Of a DNA stretch of 64,000 nt, positions 46,034-61,772 are shown one piece after another. The stretch spans positions 248,001-312,000 of the forward strand of contig NC_004113.1 in the NCBI RefSeq assembly GCF_000011345.1, written 5' to 3'. The notes under the pieces were generated by a model that did not search any database, had not been told where the DNA came from, and was given only the letters and a program-made list of their open reading frames with translations. This DNA is from Thermosynechococcus vestitus BP-1 (GTDB lineage: Bacteria > Cyanobacteriota > Cyanobacteriia > Thermosynechococcales > Thermosynechococcaceae). Position 1 is the first letter of the stretch. Every line of letters starts with the position of its first letter. The translations under genes were made by a program, and so were the position numbers.

Positions 46034-46872
46034 GTGCGACGCGAAAGCTAGCCAGATGATTGTCCCACTAGCCCAACAAGCTAGAACGGGACCGGTTGTT
46101 CCCCCAACCGTAGCCTAAGGAGGCATGCGTGACTGGTAACGGTCAGGTATGAAGCCCTCCCGACAATGAAGCCCGAACCGGAAGGTTGGAGCCGAATCCG
46201 TGAGGAGGAAGCAACTTCACCAGCGTCAGGTGATAGGGAGCTAGGCTTGAGGGTATGGTGAACGCAAGTGAAGTGACGCTAGAAGCCTCGTTACTCCAAG
46301 CAGGCCAAAGATGCTGATAGGCCTGAGCCAAAATGGCAAAGCGGATTGGATTCACTGCTTGCTTTTCAGTGAACGGGGACAGCAACTCCGCCGGGGTATA
46401 GTCACCACCTAACCCCTCGTGTCATCTGGTTGGAACGCGGTAAGCCCGTATCTTCGCCTTGAACATTCAAGGCAGGCAAACCGTAAGGAATGCTGATGGG
46501 GGTGCGGGTAGAGGAGGTGGGAAAAAGCGAATGCTAGCCTGTAATGGGCTAGATAGGGATTGAGAATGCTGGCAGGACATTCAACATCATCCCACTCGAA
46601 AGAGGGCAGACTTCCCGCCGGTCCCCCCTTACGAGAAAGTCTATAGAACCTTCCTAATGGTGACAATGCAAATGGCGGTGATCTTGAGTCACTGGTGCGG
46701 TCACCAACCTGCTCAAAAGGTAGAGAGGCTGTAGATGAGTATCGTAAAGGTTGCATGCACAACCGGTTCCTCTTAAATGAGGGGTCCTGGGGGGCTCGAG
46801 CCGGATGCGGGGAAACTTGCACGTCCGGTTCCTAGGGGGCTAGGGGGCAGCGATGCCCCCCTGCTACCCGAC
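46034..46872 (+). mobile_element. inner ORF-less group II intron nested in the maturase gene
   Basis: This 839-nt intron begins GTGCGACG and ends CTACCCGAC. Its first ~620 nt are a close copy of the outer intron's 5' part. Domain V is at 46798-46831. Where the outer intron carries the maturase ORF, this copy keeps only a decayed start (ATG 46657, then in-frame stop TAG at about 46734) fused to the last bases of the ORF, so it is an internal-deletion derivative that must use a maturase from another copy. Its EBS1 (TGCTTT, loop 46358-46366) pairs with all six bases of the upstream AAGGCA, with one G-T. Confidence 0.92.
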
Positions 46873-46873
46873 A

Positions 46874-48547
46874 ATGACGGTGGACCAAACCACTGGTGCG
46901 GTCACCAACCAAACGGAAACAAGCTGGCACAGCATAAACTGGACCAAAGCCAACCGTGAGGTAAAGAGGCTGCAAGTGCGTATCGCAAAGGCTGTGAAGG
47001 AAGGACGCTGGGGCAAAGTGAAAGCTTTGCAATGGCTCCTGACCCACTCGTTCTACGGCAAAGCCCTCGCCGTGAAACGGGTAACTGACAACTCAGGCAG
47101 TAGAACACCTGGTGTGGACGGGATAACCTGGTCCACACAAGAGCAGAAAACCCAAGCCATAAAGTCCCTCAGGAGAAGAGGCTATAAACCCCAACCCCTG
47201 AGGCGGGTATACATCCCGAAAGCAAACGGCAAACAGCGCCCGCTAGGAATCCCGACAATGAAGGACAGGGCAATGCAGGCACTATATGCCCTAGCCCTAG
47301 AACCAGTCGCGGAAACCACAGCGGACCGGAACTCCTATGGGTTCCGCCGAGGGCGATGTACGGCAGATGCGGCAGGACAATGCTTCCTTGCTCTGGCAAA
47401 AGCCAAGTCGGCTGAACACGTCCTTGACGCTGACATATCCGGATGCTTTGATAACATCAGCCATGAGTGGCTACTAGCCAACACTCCACTGGACAAAGGG
47501 ATCTTACGGAAATGGCTTAAATCTGGGTTCGTCTGGAAACAGCAACTCTTCCCCACCCATGCTGGGACACCTCAGGGAGGGGTAATCTCCCCAGTTCTTG
47601 CCAATATAACCCTAGATGGGATGGAAGAACTGTTGGCCAAACACCTCAGAGGTCAAAAAGTCAACCTCATCCGATATGCTGACGATTTTGTCGTGACGGG
47701 AAAAGATGAGGAAACCCTGGAGAAAGCCAGAAACCTAATCCAGGAGTTCCTAAAAGAACGGGGCTTGACCCTGTCCCCCGAGAAGACAAAAATCGTCCAT
47801 ATTGAGGAAGGCTTCGACTTTCTCGGATGGAACATTCGCAAGTACAACGGGGTTCTTCTCATCAAACCCGCGAAGAAGAACGTGAAAGCGTTCCTCAAGA
47901 AAATCCGAGACACTCTAAGGGAACTTAGGACAGCAACCCAGGAAATCGTGATAGACACACTCAACCCAATCATTAGAGGTTGGGCCAACTATCACAAAGG
48001 ACAAGTCTCTAAGGAAACCTTCAACCGAGTGGACTTCGCCACCTGGCACAAATTGTGGCGATGGGCAAGGCGCCGGCACCCAAACAAACCTGCCCAATGG
48101 GTGAAGGACAAATACTTCATCAAAAACGGAAGCAGAGACTGGGTGTTCGGTATGGTGATGAAAGACAAGAACGGGGAACTGAGGACCAAACGCCTAATCA
48201 AAACCTCTGACACCCGAATCCAACGCCACGTCAAAATCAAGGCAGACGCCAATCCGTTTCTCCCAGAGTGGGCAGAATACTTTGAGAAACGCAAGAAACT
48301 CAAAAAAGCCCCTGCTCAATATCGGCGCATCCGCCGAGAACTATGGAAGAAACAGGGTGGTATCTGTCCAGTATGCGGGGGTGAAATTGAGCAAGACATG
48401 CTCACTGACATCCACCACATATTGCCCAAACACAAGGGTGGTTCTGACGACCTGGATAATCTTGTCTTAATCCACGCCAACTGCCACAAACAGGTGCACA
48501 GCCGAGATGGTCAGCACAGCCGGTCCCTCTTGAAAGAGGGGCTTTGA
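46874..48547 (+). CDS. group II intron reverse transcriptase/maturase/endonuclease
   Basis: The intron-encoded protein has RT domains ([64 protein letters not shown], active site RYADDFVV), a maturase/thumb region ([11 protein letters not shown]..., [10 protein letters not shown]) and a C-terminal HNH endonuclease with [38 protein letters not shown]. All are intact. The original start is ATG 46020 with codons METR-CA; the inner intron interrupts codon 5, and splicing joins 46020-46033 to 46873, restoring METRQMTVDQTT (562 aa). Without splicing, ATG 46874 (residue 6) could still initiate a 557-aa protein. It is very similar to thermostable TeI4c-type enzymes from memory. Confidence 0.93.
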
Positions 48548-57049: not shown

Positions 57050-57082
57050 GCAACTGTTTTATAGGGCTTTGAGCCCTATTGG

Positions 57083-57116
57083 CGGTCAGGGCATCAGGCT
57101 CTGGCCGTTTTATTTT
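57083..57116 (+). terminator. terminator after the Spy-like gene
   Basis: A 10-bp stem (CGGTCAGGGC with GCTCTGGCCG, two G-T pairs) and ATCAG loop precede TTTTATTTT. A second perfect hairpin ATAGGGCT-TTG-AGCCCTAT (57061-57079) lies just upstream. Confidence 0.88.
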
Positions 57117-57240
57117 GATTGTTTTGATTAGTCAAAATCTATGATTGCCTTAATAAAAATTAAAAAATACCAAAATCAACTATTCTGTACTTTGTGTAAT
57201 AGTGAGTTTAAATCAGTCGAAAAAAACTGCTCAAGGGACT

Positions 57241-59889
57241 ATGGAAGCGCCAAATCTCGTCTACCGGAAATTTCAGGCTGCGAGAGACATCGCCCAAGGG
57301 TTCAAAGGTCAGTGGCAGCAATTCTCGGAGCGGTTTATCGATTGCCTTGAGCAGACCCACAAGGCGGGGCAGGTGGAGGCAGGCTTTCTCCAGCAATGCA
57401 AAGCTGACATTGCAGCACTTCACTCAAGTTTAGAAGAGGCGTTACAGGCACTCAACGCAAGGCTAGACAGCCCCCTACTCACCCTTGCCACCACCGGTAC
57501 GACTAGCAGCGGCAAAAGTACCCTTGTCAACTTCCTCTGTGGTGCTGAACTTCTCCCTGTTGCCGTCAGTGAAATGAGCGCCGGCACCGTTACCCTTGAG
57601 GATGGCGACGTCCCCTCCCTGACCATTGCAGCCACACCGGGGGCCCTTTGGGAATGCGGCACTTGGGAAAACATTAGTGCAGCCACCATCTATGACAAGC
57701 TAGAGGAGGCAATGCAACAGTACCTAGACACCAAGGACAGGAACCCTTCCCTAGCGCCCCCCAAAGCCAACATCACCTACCCCATCCAGTTTCTGCGGCA
57801 GCATCGGCACCAGTTGGGCCTGCCCCCTCAAACTCGTGTTCAGCTCCTTGACCTGCCCGGCTTTGCCTATGTGGGGGATGAGCGGAATGCCCAGATTATC
57901 CGTGAGCAATGTCGGCAGGCGCTATGCCTTGTCACCTACAACAGCGCTGAAACGGACGCCAAGAAAACCGAACAACTCCTTGAGGAAGTGGTGATCCAAG
58001 TCAAAAACCTAGGGGGGTCCCCGGCACGGATGCTCTTTGTCCTCAATCGCATTGATGTGTTTCAGGAGGATAAAGACCCCCAGAAGTCGGAACAGCGCTT
58101 TGTGAGCAAGACCGTTGGCCAGATCAAAGATAAGCTTAAAGAGAAGTTGCCGGAGCATGAGGAGGCGATTGAGACGCTGAAGGTGCTGAAGCTGAGTGCC
58201 CGGGCGGCTTTGTATAGTCAACTCATCCAGCAAAGCGTAGGGGAAGAACGAGCAAAGATTTGTGAGCGAGTGGACCAACAGCACCAAGTGTTAATTGGCA
58301 AAGGCATTTTAGAAGACTTGCCCCGTAATCCAGCGAAATGGACTGATCACGATTGCCAGCGGGTGGCAGAGAGTCTGTGGGAAAATTCCTATGGTCAAGA
58401 ACTCTTTAAGGAACTGGTTGAGCAAGTTCAACAGCACTTTCCCGAGCTCGTCATTCCCCAAATTGTGGCGGACTTCAACGAGGGTGCAGTAAATAAGGTT
58501 CTAGAGTGGTGTACCCAAGAGGTCCATGCCATCTGCAACAGTATAGAAGAGAAGTATCGCCAAGAGTGTGAGAGGCTAGAGGAGACTGGGGTTCAACTTT
58601 CAGAGAAACTACGACGAGCAGGGGAAAACCTGAAGGTACCTTTTGAGGAGATGAAAGAGCTCATTACCAGCCATTCACCCATTACCAACCATTCGATTGT
58701 GTTATTAGAACCTATTATGCTCGAATTTATTGGAAATAAAGAACAAACTGAGTGCGAACCCGAAGTTGATGATAATGATGATGATGAGTGGTCGGATAAA
58801 ATACGGCAATGGCGCGATAAAATACAGCAATGGCATAGTCAGGTTGATGATGAGTGGAGGGATAAAATAAAGCTAGATGAAGAAATATTACCTCTGATAT
58901 ACACTTGGAGACGTGAGGTATTCAGCTCAATTGACAAACTACTAGAGCAAGTTTACCTTTCTATACAAGATGGCAAGGTCGATTTTTCAGCGGATGTGAA
59001 CCTTAAGCAGTTGCCACCCCCTGACCAGAAATACGTGCAGGAACTTGAGGAAAAATTAAGAGAGTTCATTGAATTCATCAACGCTATAGATTGTAACTGT
59101 GCAGACGTCGCTGAACAAGGAATGACCATTCGGCAAGAGCCCCAGAAAGATACCAAAATTATCCACTTTCAGTCCATCATCCAAGATATCCAAAAGCGTC
59201 TTAGTGAGGTTGTCAAAGTTCTTGTCAAAAGTGTCCTAGCTCGTGAGCAGGGTCGTATTTACGACGCCCTGAGCCTCTTATTTAGAAACCATTTAGAATA
59301 CCTACAGGAGAGTGCTCAGAGAATTGCCCCAGAGCTTGGGATTCAGTTCCCGATGAGTACTTTAAGTCAAGTTCAGAAAGAACTCAATTGGGGCATCTCT
59401 CTAGAAAAAGCCTTTTCTCCAGAAGCAAAAGAGGCGACATGGACCGCTACTGAAAGAAGGAAAACAAGACCTTGGTGGCTGCTCTGGTTGTTCGAAATAG
59501 AAACAAAAGTAACTGTACAAAAGTCTGGCTTAGAGCTTGAAGTTCCCAGCATGGCAAAGCTCTGTGAAGACTGGAGCGCTGCCTGTAAAAATCGGGTGTA
59601 TGAGTGCTTATGGCCTGCATATCTTGATTGGTTTGTAGAGCAAACCAATTTGCTCACAGAACAAGCGAATGAATATCAGCAAGCGGTACTAGAGCGCTAT
59701 CGCTCTAAATTAAGCGAATGCCACCAAGCGCTCAGCATAGATTATGAAACCCGCAAGCAGTTTTGGGAGCTAATGCACACAAGTGTGGCCGAGCTAGAAC
59801 AAGAGCGACCTTCTTGGGATAAGATTAAGCAGTCTGAAAATGCTGGAGTAACGTCCGTTGAGCTAAACGCTGAAACTAGCTCAGTATAG
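57241..59889 (+). CDS. dynamin-like GTPase
   Basis: The 882-aa protein (from ATG 57241, preceded by AAGGGA; a GTG at 57202 would add 13 residues) has a GTPase domain in residues ~70-290: G1 TGTTSSGKSTLVN, a G2-like Thr in MSAGTVTLED, G3 LLDLPGFAYVGDERN and G4 LNRID. The remaining ~550 residues are helical with coiled-coil character and an acidic insert (EVDDNDDDEW). WWLLWLF near residue 745 could touch a membrane. Bacterial dynamin-like proteins remodel membranes or act in defence. The 3' half is AT-richer than its neighbours, suggesting horizontal origin. Confidence 0.85.
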   Translation: MEAPNLVYRKFQAARDIAQGFKGQWQQFSERFIDCLEQTHKAGQVEAGFLQQCKADIAALHSSLEEALQALNARLDSPLLTLATTGTTSSGKSTLVNFLCGAELLPVAVSEMSAGTVTLEDGDVPSLTIAATPGALWECGTWENISAATIYDKLEEAMQQYLDTKDRNPSLAPPKANITYPIQFLRQHRHQLGLPPQTRVQLLDLPGFAYVGDERNAQIIREQCRQALCLVTYNSAETDAKKTEQLLEEVVIQVKNLGGSPARMLFVLNRIDVFQEDKDPQKSEQRFVSKTVGQIKDKLKEKLPEHEEAIETLKVLKLSARAALYSQLIQQSVGEERAKICERVDQQHQVLIGKGILEDLPRNPAKWTDHDCQRVAESLWENSYGQELFKELVEQVQQHFPELVIPQIVADFNEGAVNKVLEWCTQEVHAICNSIEEKYRQECERLEETGVQLSEKLRRAGENLKVPFEEMKELITSHSPITNHSIVLLEPIMLEFIGNKEQTECEPEVDDNDDDEWSDKIRQWRDKIQQWHSQVDDEWRDKIKLDEEILPLIYTWRREVFSSIDKLLEQVYLSIQDGKVDFSADVNLKQLPPPDQKYVQELEEKLREFIEFINAIDCNCADVAEQGMTIRQEPQKDTKIIHFQSIIQDIQKRLSEVVKVLVKSVLAREQGRIYDALSLLFRNHLEYLQESAQRIAPELGIQFPMSTLSQVQKELNWGISLEKAFSPEAKEATWTATERRKTRPWWLLWLFEIETKVTVQKSGLELEVPSMAKLCEDWSAACKNRVYECLWPAYLDWFVEQTNLLTEQANEYQQAVLERYRSKLSECHQALSIDYETRKQFWELMHTSVAELEQERPSWDKIKQSENAGVTSVELNAETSSV

Positions 59890-59928
59890 GAAATACTCGT
59901 TAATCAAAAGTGGCAGGAGGATTATTAC

Positions 59929-60405
59929 ATGTCAAAACCTTGGGGGGAGCCCCTTTGTAAACTCCTGAGATGTCAACTCCTGAGACCAAGAGCAGGTCTT
60001 TTAGGGTCTTCTAAAGTTCAGGCTTCTATTGCTTTAATTCTCCAAGCAAAGTATGCACCTTCTCTTAAGGAAAATCGAACCATTCATGAACTAAAACTAG
60101 ATGAACTTTTAGGATACATTGACAAGGCAGCCTACTATTTGGTTGTGAGAACTCAAGAGATAGATAACATCGAGAAAAATTTAAATTTATCTCTTGGGAA
60201 ATTGGATGATAAGGTATATGAACAAGATATTTACCTGCGCATAGACATCGATCGAGTTCCTGAGGAAATATGCAATGCAAAGAGTAAGCTAGCCATCAAA
60301 TCCTTCCTTCGAAAGCATGAAAATCAATTGAAATTTAAGAATTTTAAGGTGTCCCGTTTGAAGTTAAGCCTGAGTAGCAGAGGCTTAGAAAAATTCAGTT
60401 GTTAA
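59929..60405 (+). CDS. unknown 158-aa protein linked to the dynamin-like GTPase
   Basis: ATG 59929 follows GGCAGGAGGATT, a good ribosome binding site. The product has a basic N-terminus with CKLLRCQLLRPRAG, a helical segment (LKLDELLGYIDKAAYYLVVRTQEIDNIEKNLNLSL) and a Lys-rich C-terminus. No family is recognised. It lies 39 nt after the GTPase stop and has the same AT-rich composition, so the two probably form one operon. The ~200 bp after it hold no gene that I can support. Confidence 0.65.
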   Translation: MSKPWGEPLCKLLRCQLLRPRAGLLGSSKVQASIALILQAKYAPSLKENRTIHELKLDELLGYIDKAAYYLVVRTQEIDNIEKNLNLSLGKLDDKVYEQDIYLRIDIDRVPEEICNAKSKLAIKSFLRKHENQLKFKNFKVSRLKLSLSSRGLEKFSC

Positions 60406-60608
60406 CAGCTAGTGGCAGCGCTATGGCATCGCCCCTGGGGAGACTGCAGAAACTAGACCTGGCCGCCCCTCCCATGCCTCTTTTTTGCAGAAAGATGGTC
60501 ATGGTGGACTACGCTATTAAAACTGGTTGCTGACCTGTTTGACAACCTCTCTGATCTTCAATTGGATAGATCTTAGATTGGATACAAGAGTCCCTCAGCA
60601 ACCTGAAA

Positions 60609-61772
60609 TTAGCCATTTTGGGGGATTAGATTCAGAATCTCTGTAGCGGCGCGATCGACGACGCCGGCAGTTCCCATGGCCGCTCGCATTTCCGCGTAGC
60701 CCGCCTGCATGGCCAATCGTTTTTCCGGGTGATCCAATAGGGCAAAAGCTGCCGCGGTGATGTTGTCAATGGTGGCGCGATCCTGTAGGAGCTCAGGGAC
60801 AATTTCTCTGCCAACCAGTAGGTTTGGAGGCGATACAAACTGGAGATTGAATTTGAGGAAGCGCTGATAAAGCCACAAACTCAGGGGATGCACACGGTAG
60901 ATGACCACTTGGGGCACATTCAAAAGCGCTGTTTCTAAATTCACTGTGCCCGATTTGGCGATCGCCAGATCCGCTGCCGCCAGCACTTGCAGTGAGTCTT
61001 CCGCAAGGGTGACGCAAATGGGATATTGCTTGAGAACTGCTTCAATGGCTGGGCGATACTGCTGCAGAGACAACGGTAACCAAAAGCGGGCTTGAGGATA
61101 GGCCTTAGCGATATTCGTGGCAGCCCCTAAAATCAGTGGCAAGAGGGATTGAATTTCCTGTTTGCGCGAAAGGGGCAATAGGGCGATCGCCAGCTCATCG
61201 GCAGCAATCCCCAGACTTTGGCGTGCCACCTCACGACTAGGGGCGGCGGCAATACGATCCAACAGCGGATGCCCGACCCACACCACATTGGCCCCGTGAC
61301 GGCGATAATAGCTGGCCTCCTCCGGAAAAATGGCTAGCAGGCGATCGCTGAGGGCAACAATCTGCTGGGTGGTCTTGAGGCCATGGGACCAGACCCACTC
61401 TTGGGGGGCAATGTAATAGACGATTGGGATGGCAAAGTGCCGCCGAATAAACTGCCCCATGGCAACATTGCCGCCAATGTAATCAATCAAAACCACCAAG
61501 TCCGGCGGATGCTGCTGTAGGTAGCGGCGAGCCTTCAGTTGCAGGGCGATCGTGGGTTTGATGAGGGGCAGGGCTTCTAGAAGTCCCACCGAGCCAATGC
61601 TCCCCGTATTAAAGAGCACCTTTGCCCCTGCGGCGGCCATGCGATCGCCCCCAAGGGCAGAAATTTCTAAGGGCATTCCCCGCTCTGCCGCCAAGCGATA
61701 GAGCGCCTTCACCAGCAGGGCACCCTGCAAATCCCCAGAGACTTCCCCCGTACTAATGAAAAGATGTGCCAT
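60609..61772 (-). CDS. lpxB: lipid-A-disaccharide synthase
   Basis: The 387-aa GT-B enzyme joins UDP-diacylglucosamine and lipid X in lipid A synthesis at the inner membrane. Family features include the N-terminal IFISTGEVSGDLQGA-type sequence (LFISTGEVSGDLQG), YYIAPQEWVWSHG, VWVGHPLLDRI, LPLSRKQEIQSLLPLILGAA and the C-terminal SGTVNLETALLNVPQVVIYRVHPLS. It begins 2 nt after gshA. Confidence 0.95.
   Translation of the reverse strand: MAHLFISTGEVSGDLQGALLVKALYRLAAERGMPLEISALGGDRMAAAGAKVLFNTGSIGSVGLLEALPLIKPTIALQLKARRYLQQHPPDLVVLIDYIGGNVAMGQFIRRHFAIPIVYYIAPQEWVWSHGLKTTQQIVALSDRLLAIFPEEASYYRRHGANVVWVGHPLLDRIAAAPSREVARQSLGIAADELAIALLPLSRKQEIQSLLPLILGAATNIAKAYPQARFWLPLSLQQYRPAIEAVLKQYPICVTLAEDSLQVLAAADLAIAKSGTVNLETALLNVPQVVIYRVHPLSLWLYQRFLKFNLQFVSPPNLLVGREIVPELLQDRATIDNITAAAFALLDHPEKRLAMQAGYAEMRAAMGTAGVVDRAATEILNLIPQNG

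Follow-up and report, generated by a model that had tools for sequence, protein, structure and literature searches.

The dynamin-like gene pair in the window

The window analyzed here is a stretch of 64,000 nucleotides from Thermosynechococcus vestitus BP-1 (contig NC_004113.1, positions 248,001 to 312,000 of the forward strand), whose genome consists of one contig of 2,593,857 bases. It carries a gene pair (A+S) encoding a dynamin-like GTPase (DLP-A) and a small partner protein (S), which in other cyanobacteria are part of a three-gene operon with a second dynamin-like protein, DLP-B. A preliminary description of the window had reported a GTPase of 882 amino acids and a protein of 158 amino acids, and both open reading frames (ORFs) were confirmed, as was the good ribosome binding site of the small gene (Table 1). 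On the basis of a Dynamin_N match above the cutoff and the retention of the G1, G3, and G4 motifs, the GTPase is assigned to the dynamin family. An alternative GTG start codon at position 57202 would give a protein of 895 amino acids, and the ATG at 57241 is preferred because the homology with two sister copies of the gene starts only at 57222. The claim that the partner belongs to no known family also stood. The window S gave nothing above the cutoff in Pfam, where the only line was RIBIOP_C (0.005, below the cutoff), and no match in NCBIfam or PADLOC. It matches S profile A3 at 6.4e-39, a profile that itself includes the window S.

The pair had also been described as AT rich and as lying downstream of a strong terminator, and each statement was borne out in part. 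The G+C content is 55.3% in the first 1000 bases of the GTPase gene, 53.9% in the window, 44.4% in the remainder of the GTPase gene, and 37.5% in the small gene. The third-position G+C content of the GTPase gene is 0.64 in the first third and 0.438 thereafter, and that of the small gene (0.346) is the lowest among the 47 ORFs of at least 150 amino acids (mean, 0.581; standard deviation, 0.053). Low G+C content is thus restricted to the 3' two-thirds of the GTPase gene and the small gene, and the term "compositionally distinct" applies to this portion. A terminator-like stem-loop does lie upstream, although the scan of the region returned 2 sites against a mean of 4.4 in shuffled sequences, fewer than expected by chance. 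The stem-loop is assigned to the flank because it is kept, as judged by eye, in the two relatives compared.

Table 1. Features of the DLP-A and S locus (window coordinates)
Feature	Position	Strand	Evidence or remark
Terminator-like stem-loop of upstream gene	57081..57109	+	12-pair stem with 7 G-C pairs and T-rich tail; consensus match only
Strain-specific segment with A+S pair	57122..60586	.	Missing at the syntenic site in seven of the nine congeners examined
DLP-A, dynamin-like GTPase, 882 amino acids	57241..59889	+	ATG start; Pfam Dynamin_N 3.1e-11, above cutoff
DLP-A P-loop (G1) GTTSSGKS, residues 86-93	57496..57519	+	Invariant in 10 DLP-A sequences except S90, nearly invariant
DLP-A G3 motif DLPG, residues 204-207	57850..57861	+	Invariant in 10/10 DLP-A sequences
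DLP-A G4 motif NRID, residues 269-272	58045..58056	+	N, I, and D invariant and R nearly so in 10 DLP-A sequences
S ribosome binding site AGGAGG	59915..59920	+	8 bases 5' of the ATG; identical in both sister copies
S partner, 158 amino acids	59929..60405	+	Aligned with sister proteins of 232 and 196 amino acids; member of alignment A6
Conserved C-terminal domain of S	60012..60402	+	Sister-copy DNA homology resumes at 60012; domain alone matches type II S family
54-bp piece of repeat-unit boundary element	60413..60466	.	98% identical to the element preceding tandem copies B and C
Downstream gene	60609..61772	-	lpxB by the naming of the preliminary description only

Copies of the pair in the genome and in congeners

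Two more copies of the A+S pair lie in tandem at genome positions 354,876 to 361,683, approximately 46 kb from the window pair. Copy B encodes proteins of 882 and 232 amino acids and copy C proteins of 861 and 196 amino acids, and their GTPases are 92% and 90% identical, respectively, to the window GTPase. The copy C GTPase is 19 residues shorter at its end through an in-frame TAG codon. The A+S pair was found in none of the 10 congeners searched, one of which (G005) has a different dynamin with 29% identity. The window site was examined in nine of the 10 congeners, as G006 gave no lpxB match. Both flanks were syntenic and the segment was missing in seven of the nine, the other two matching on the lpxB side only; at locus L116, 75 bp stand in place of the 3465 bp of the window site. 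At the tandem site, the flanks were syntenic and the insert was missing in six of eight congeners, and the other two matched on one side only. Congeners left out at either site had given no marker match or a fragmentary one. These syntenic empty sites indicate that this lineage gained the pair at both sites or that the others lost it.

An 84-bp boundary element precedes copies B and C, and 54 bp of the same element follow the window pair; no further occurrence was found in the genome, giving three places in all. Judging from the 54-bp piece, the window copy looks excised from a tandem array. A mobile element was considered as the vehicle and rejected, since no clear target duplication was seen by eye at the two sites and the 84-bp element is confined to the three copies; for transposases, the analysis covered the ORF lists of the units. 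A 77-bp copy (L015:4615-4691; 82% identity) of the 3' end of a neighboring gene (L015:3296-3372) lies upstream of tandem copy B and overlaps the 84-bp element. No DLP-B was found in the genome with a DLP-B profile, and apart from the three copies, Dynamin_N matched only within frames of 554 codons or fewer. Among the genomes seen, this is the only one with an unbroken DLP-A and S that has no DLP-B.

A three-gene operon in other cyanobacteria

Among 388 genomes of the class searched with DLP-A, 31 matched at 1e-10, namely, T. vestitus BP-1 itself, 12 with strong relatives (3.9e-135 to 7.4e-47), G350 with a remnant, and 17 with a distant dynamin (29 to 38% identity). The window DLP-A is 43 to 54% identical over the GTPase half to relatives in 11 other genomes, and a 12th gave shorter pieces. 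A search of 291 genomes from the order of one of these yielded 32 genomes at 1e-60, including G071 of the distant kind, and a general contig scan added at least two loci; the searches as a whole were centered on cyanobacteria. Forty-two loci, selected by their DLP-A or DLP-B matches and not by S, were read. Outside T. vestitus BP-1, an unbroken DLP-A of at least 700 amino acids was present at 27 loci, one of which (L141) ends with its contig, leaving 26 testable.

At all 26 testable loci, DLP-A is followed by S and S by DLP-B on one strand, with a gap of 8 to 15 bp between S and DLP-B at 22 of them. The co-occurrence of GTPase and partner, put up as a check in the preliminary description, is thereby confirmed, and the GTPase was not found to be common without the partner. 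The proposal of an undescribed two-component membrane system fared less uniformly: the undescribed dynamin partner stands, but "two-component" does not, as DLP-B belongs to the operon elsewhere. Among these loci, DLP-B is cut by the contig end at L144 and broken into two ORFs at L150, S reads as two overlapping ORFs at L138, DLP-A lacks its start at L056, where the contig cuts it, and a small DLP-A ORF lies just before the long one at L148. The other 15 loci comprise contig ends, operon halves, the interrupted copy L058 (in which DLP-A holds an IS1-type transposase), L145 (without DLP-B and with a broken DLP-A), L159 (without S), and remnants. At 1e-30, the DLP-B profile found 15 of the 388 genomes, consisting of all 12 with a strong DLP-A plus G049 (S and DLP-B at a contig end) and the partial cases G061 and G288.

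Several further loci are of note. Duplication of A+S occurs elsewhere too, as genome G044 (L052:7376-15168) carries a truncated DLP-A (474 amino acids) with its own S before a full three-gene operon, beside an nSTAND1 protein. Decaying operons are present at L159, L160, and L161, where S is lost or remnants of DLP-A and DLP-B are joined by deletion. A dynamin fragment with 43% identity to DLP-A (L139:6827-7453) lies at the end of a contig titled as an Acetobacter metagenome-assembled genome from sheep abomasum and possibly reflects transfer or contamination. Four operons of one family (L057, L058, L151, and L153) adjoin genes that we take to be psaA/psaB-like.

The S partner family

Judged by its alignment (A6, 36 proteins), S is a poorly conserved family, with a variable N terminus, usually one hydrophobic helix, a linker, and a conserved C-terminal domain. 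Searches of the 36 members against Pfam, NCBIfam, and PADLOC gave no credible match, with weak lines that each involved one member or, for one line, two. Of the 22 loci fetched later, 17 had an S that was found with profile A3, for which the first 17 members had been used. By a plain 19-residue hydropathy average with a threshold of 1.3, which is not a dedicated predictor, a hydrophobic stretch precedes the C-terminal domain in 27 of the 36 proteins, and the remaining nine have none above the threshold, one falling just under it. Around the 27 stretches, lysine and arginine are more frequent after the stretch in 18 proteins, less frequent in five, and equal in four.

The three S proteins of T. 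vestitus BP-1 differ at their N termini, with a hydrophobic helix in copy C, a repeated LKFDGQKVEV-like segment in copy B, and neither in the window copy. The highest 19-residue hydropathy before the C-terminal domain is 2.79 in copy C, 0.47 in copy B, and 0.49 in the window S, so that two of the three have no helix. The window S shares its start codon and ribosome binding site with its sisters, but its N-terminal part is short and differs from theirs. From base 60012 the three copies agree, and the insertions and deletions in the C-terminal domain, judged by eye from the alignment, are multiples of three. Neither the threefold presence of the pair nor the absence from the window S of a membrane segment kept by most relatives had been noted in the preliminary description. 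In genome G265, S (L057:6693-7148) reads as 151 amino acids without a helix and the congener S at L151 as 263 amino acids with one, which suggests that the anchor was lost a second time, independently.

A second type of dynamin operon encodes a small protein as well. The distant dynamin was present at 18 loci; at 14 of them a small protein comes after it (family A7, picked by position), followed at 12 of these by a protein of 391 to 462 amino acids. This last protein, at L018, L060-L066, L068-L070, and L074, often has an RYGSVIR-like motif near its start, and the four scanned gave no Pfam family above the cutoff. Compared by hhalign, with E values that each refer to a single comparison, A7 and S match with a probability of 95.8% (E, 8e-9) as a whole and 85% (E, 6e-6; 75 columns) for the C-terminal domain alone. 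For this domain, 100 column shuffles reached at most 9.2% (E, 0.0035 at best), and the reversed control gave 0.1%. The evidence from these profiles that S is related to the small protein of the second operon is good, if not beyond doubt.

Sequence change among the copies

The DLP-A genes of the window and copy B differ by 25.7 synonymous and 83.3 nonsynonymous changes, with a ratio of nonsynonymous to synonymous substitution rates (dN/dS) of 0.88 overall and 0.43 in codons 1 to 330. Over codons 1 to 716, copies B and C encode the same amino acids, and the 145 codons compared thereafter contain 27 nonsynonymous differences, a pattern that indicates a recent event of duplication or conversion, the tail being changed. 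The tree places the three copies together within DLP-A, on a branch of length 1.53, and the group that encloses them has a support of 82/96; loss of DLP-B from this genome is thus likely rather than proven.

These patterns bear on whether the genes are still in use. The three A+S copies could be decaying relics that became nonfunctional after the loss of DLP-B, were spread by chance recombination, and now drift. The overall dN/dS of the window and copy B, which exceeds 1 past codon 330, would fit such relics, as would the branch length of the copies, the premature end of the copy C GTPase, the missing N terminus of the window S, and the frequency of remnants elsewhere (L159-L161, L134-L136, and L075). 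However, among the 109 differences between the window and copy B, approximately five stop codons would be expected (4.9% of changes create a stop), and none is seen. Moreover, the dN/dS of 0.43 in the GTPase part and the insertions and deletions in threes in the C-terminal domain of S make the genes look used. We regard decay as a rather unlikely explanation.

A candidate membrane-anchored dynamin system

We put a probability of roughly one-half on the reading that the window locus represents a reduced version of a three-gene chromosomal system in which S would act as an anchor or adaptor, and that in T. vestitus BP-1 DLP-B was lost and A+S was amplified. Of 21 DLP-A and DLP-B proteins, 19 have no 19-residue stretch with a hydropathy of at least 1.6, and this combination of soluble dynamins with a hydrophobic S makes S the candidate anchor. 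The excess of lysine and arginine after the helix suggests a cytoplasmic C-terminal domain. The helix of S may thus be embedded in either the plasma membrane or the thylakoid membrane, leaving the C-terminal domain on the cytoplasmic side to bind soluble DLP-A (and DLP-B). GTP-driven assembly of the two dynamins, acting as a heterotypic pair, on the anchored complex could then tether or reshape the membrane, and S may also control the assembly. By analogy with DynA and SynDLP, the use would most likely be membrane repair or stress maintenance. In T. vestitus BP-1, the DLP-A paralogs may pair together in place of the lost DLP-B, and the window S, having no helix, may serve as a soluble partner or regulate the anchored form.

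Several points weigh against this membrane-anchored system. The dN/dS between the window and copy B is 1.1 to 1.4 beyond codon 330, and the very long branch of the three copies and the early TAG of copy C also fit decay after the loss of DLP-B. The nine S proteins without a helix above the threshold include two of the three in T. vestitus BP-1. We infer the interaction between S and the dynamins, their localization, and their activity from sequence. AlphaFold2 models made with two-sequence alignments reached a mean pLDDT of 44.7 for DLP-A and 35.2 for S, and nothing is built on either. At that confidence, the DLP-A model has long helices around and after the GTPase domain, and a fold search of the PDB with it gave no match at an E value of 0.001. 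In addition, the bacterial dynamins SynDLP (PMC9950537) and NosDLP are reported to bind lipid themselves, so an anchor may be dispensable.

The association with phage defense raised in the preliminary description was found to be unsupported, by a test that is weak. In such an anti-phage system, which we consider improbable, the dynamins would act by postponing lysis or sealing the membrane, and S would be the sensor. Patchy, strain-specific presence, amplification, and fast change are in keeping with this idea, and the L052 operon adjoins the nSTAND1 protein; four operons, on the other hand, adjoin the psaA/psaB-like genes. In PADLOC, LeoBC matches 10 of 10 and LeoA six of 10 DLP-A members (best, 2.4e-10 and 3.8e-12), which favors defense, and the window pair has no convincing defense match (DLP-A with LeoA at 5.8e-6 and LeoBC at 1.6e-4; S with none). 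The flanks comprise 141 proteins from 26 loci (ORFs of more than 1500 amino acids excluded), of which 130 from 24 loci were scanned at 1e-10. As many as 129 of the 5027 PADLOC models match at least one of the 130, but each of the 25 listed among these 129 matches at most four, Cas12f models, here presumably TnpB-like transposases, being the commonest; a scan of this kind, run without a background set, neither shows nor excludes a link with defense. No relative of the system was found in phage records, nor in viral contigs, where the scan was limited to two short peptide patterns and gave six pattern matches. Among plasmids, two DLP-A queries found one distant Nostoc plasmid dynamin (28 and 29% identity), and DLP-B gave one weak Bacillus plasmid match. 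The Bacillus subtilis dynamin DynA is described as delaying phage lysis (PMC8844932), which speaks for defense, and the word dynamin is absent from the accessible text of two papers on conflict systems (PMC8195603 and PMC7159879). Elsewhere in the window (46853..48547), an ORF for a group II intron reverse transcriptase/maturase with an HNH domain was identified (RVT_1, 3.6e-47; GIIM, 4e-27; part scanned).

A dedicated role in thylakoid maintenance, in which S would direct the dynamins to the photosynthetic membrane during stress by light or heat, seems very unlikely. The distribution is cyanobacterial, apart from the fragment on the Acetobacter contig, and the neighbors of L057, L058, L151, and L153 would suit such a role, as would an interaction of the Synechocystis dynamin with thylakoid lipids, as reported (PMC9950537). 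However, most cyanobacteria searched, including all 10 congeners, have no such system, a rarity which argues that it is not needed for thylakoids, and because the searches were centered on cyanobacteria, the range is no fair test.

More tentatively, and in our view doubtful as a whole, DLP-A, S, and DLP-B might form an undescribed three-part dynamin machine in which S is an adaptor for two operon types. The DLP-B of T. vestitus BP-1 would then have been replaced by amplified DLP-A paralogs, each with an S of a different N terminus (helix, repeats, or none), so that anchored and soluble assemblies could be mixed. How soluble bacterial dynamins choose a membrane is the question to which a conserved, usually membrane-spanning protein encoded between two dynamins offers a direct candidate. 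A genome in which one dynamin is missing and the other is amplified, S included, offers an experiment of nature on the requirement for each part, and it does so in organisms whose thylakoid remodeling is an open question.

Comparison with known systems

SynDLP (Slr0869) and Nostoc BDLP1 are likewise cyanobacterial dynamin-like GTPases. In the PDB, the DLP-B profile finds both over approximately 60 residues of the GTPase region (3.7e-5 and 4.4e-4), and DLP-A matches neither at an E value of 0.01 by phmmer or profile. The accessible part of Jilly 2018 describes an "HSR1 clade" of cyanobacterial dynamin-like proteins with a GTP-binding HSR1-like protein encoded downstream (PMC5827413). The two DLP-B proteins scanned pass both Pfam MMR_HSR1 and Dynamin_N, so the pairing of DLP-A and DLP-B may already appear there as this clade. 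That feature would fit the DLP-B of the three-gene operons, whereas T. vestitus BP-1 has no DLP-B. In the same part of the paper, no small membrane protein is named with the dynamins of the clade, and a small KGK-domain protein is named in another clade. Other paired dynamins, such as Cj-DLP1/2 and Streptomyces DynA/DynB, are encoded by adjoining genes and are thought to be heterotypic pairs, and the accessible part of the source (PMC6104087) mentions no small protein like S encoded between them. Likewise, the literature searched, mostly open papers without their supplements and in part only, contains no description of S or of the dynamins of this genome.

The closest three-gene system is LeoABC of enterotoxigenic Escherichia coli (PMC4159319), which resembles the present operon in its three adjacent genes, its heterotypic dynamins, and the predicted transmembrane helix of LeoC. 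LeoC and LeoB, however, jointly form a split dynamin whose GTPase domain belongs to the LeoC part, whereas DLP-A and DLP-B are each full length and S has no GTPase domain. The Leo models gave no match with the 36 S members at 0.01, and they matched DLP-A modestly and few of the DLP-B proteins (LeoBC, two of 11; LeoA, one of 11). Heterotypic bacterial dynamin systems are already known, and what is new here is S, its probable kinship with the small protein of the second operon, and a triplicate of the pair in a genome without DLP-B.

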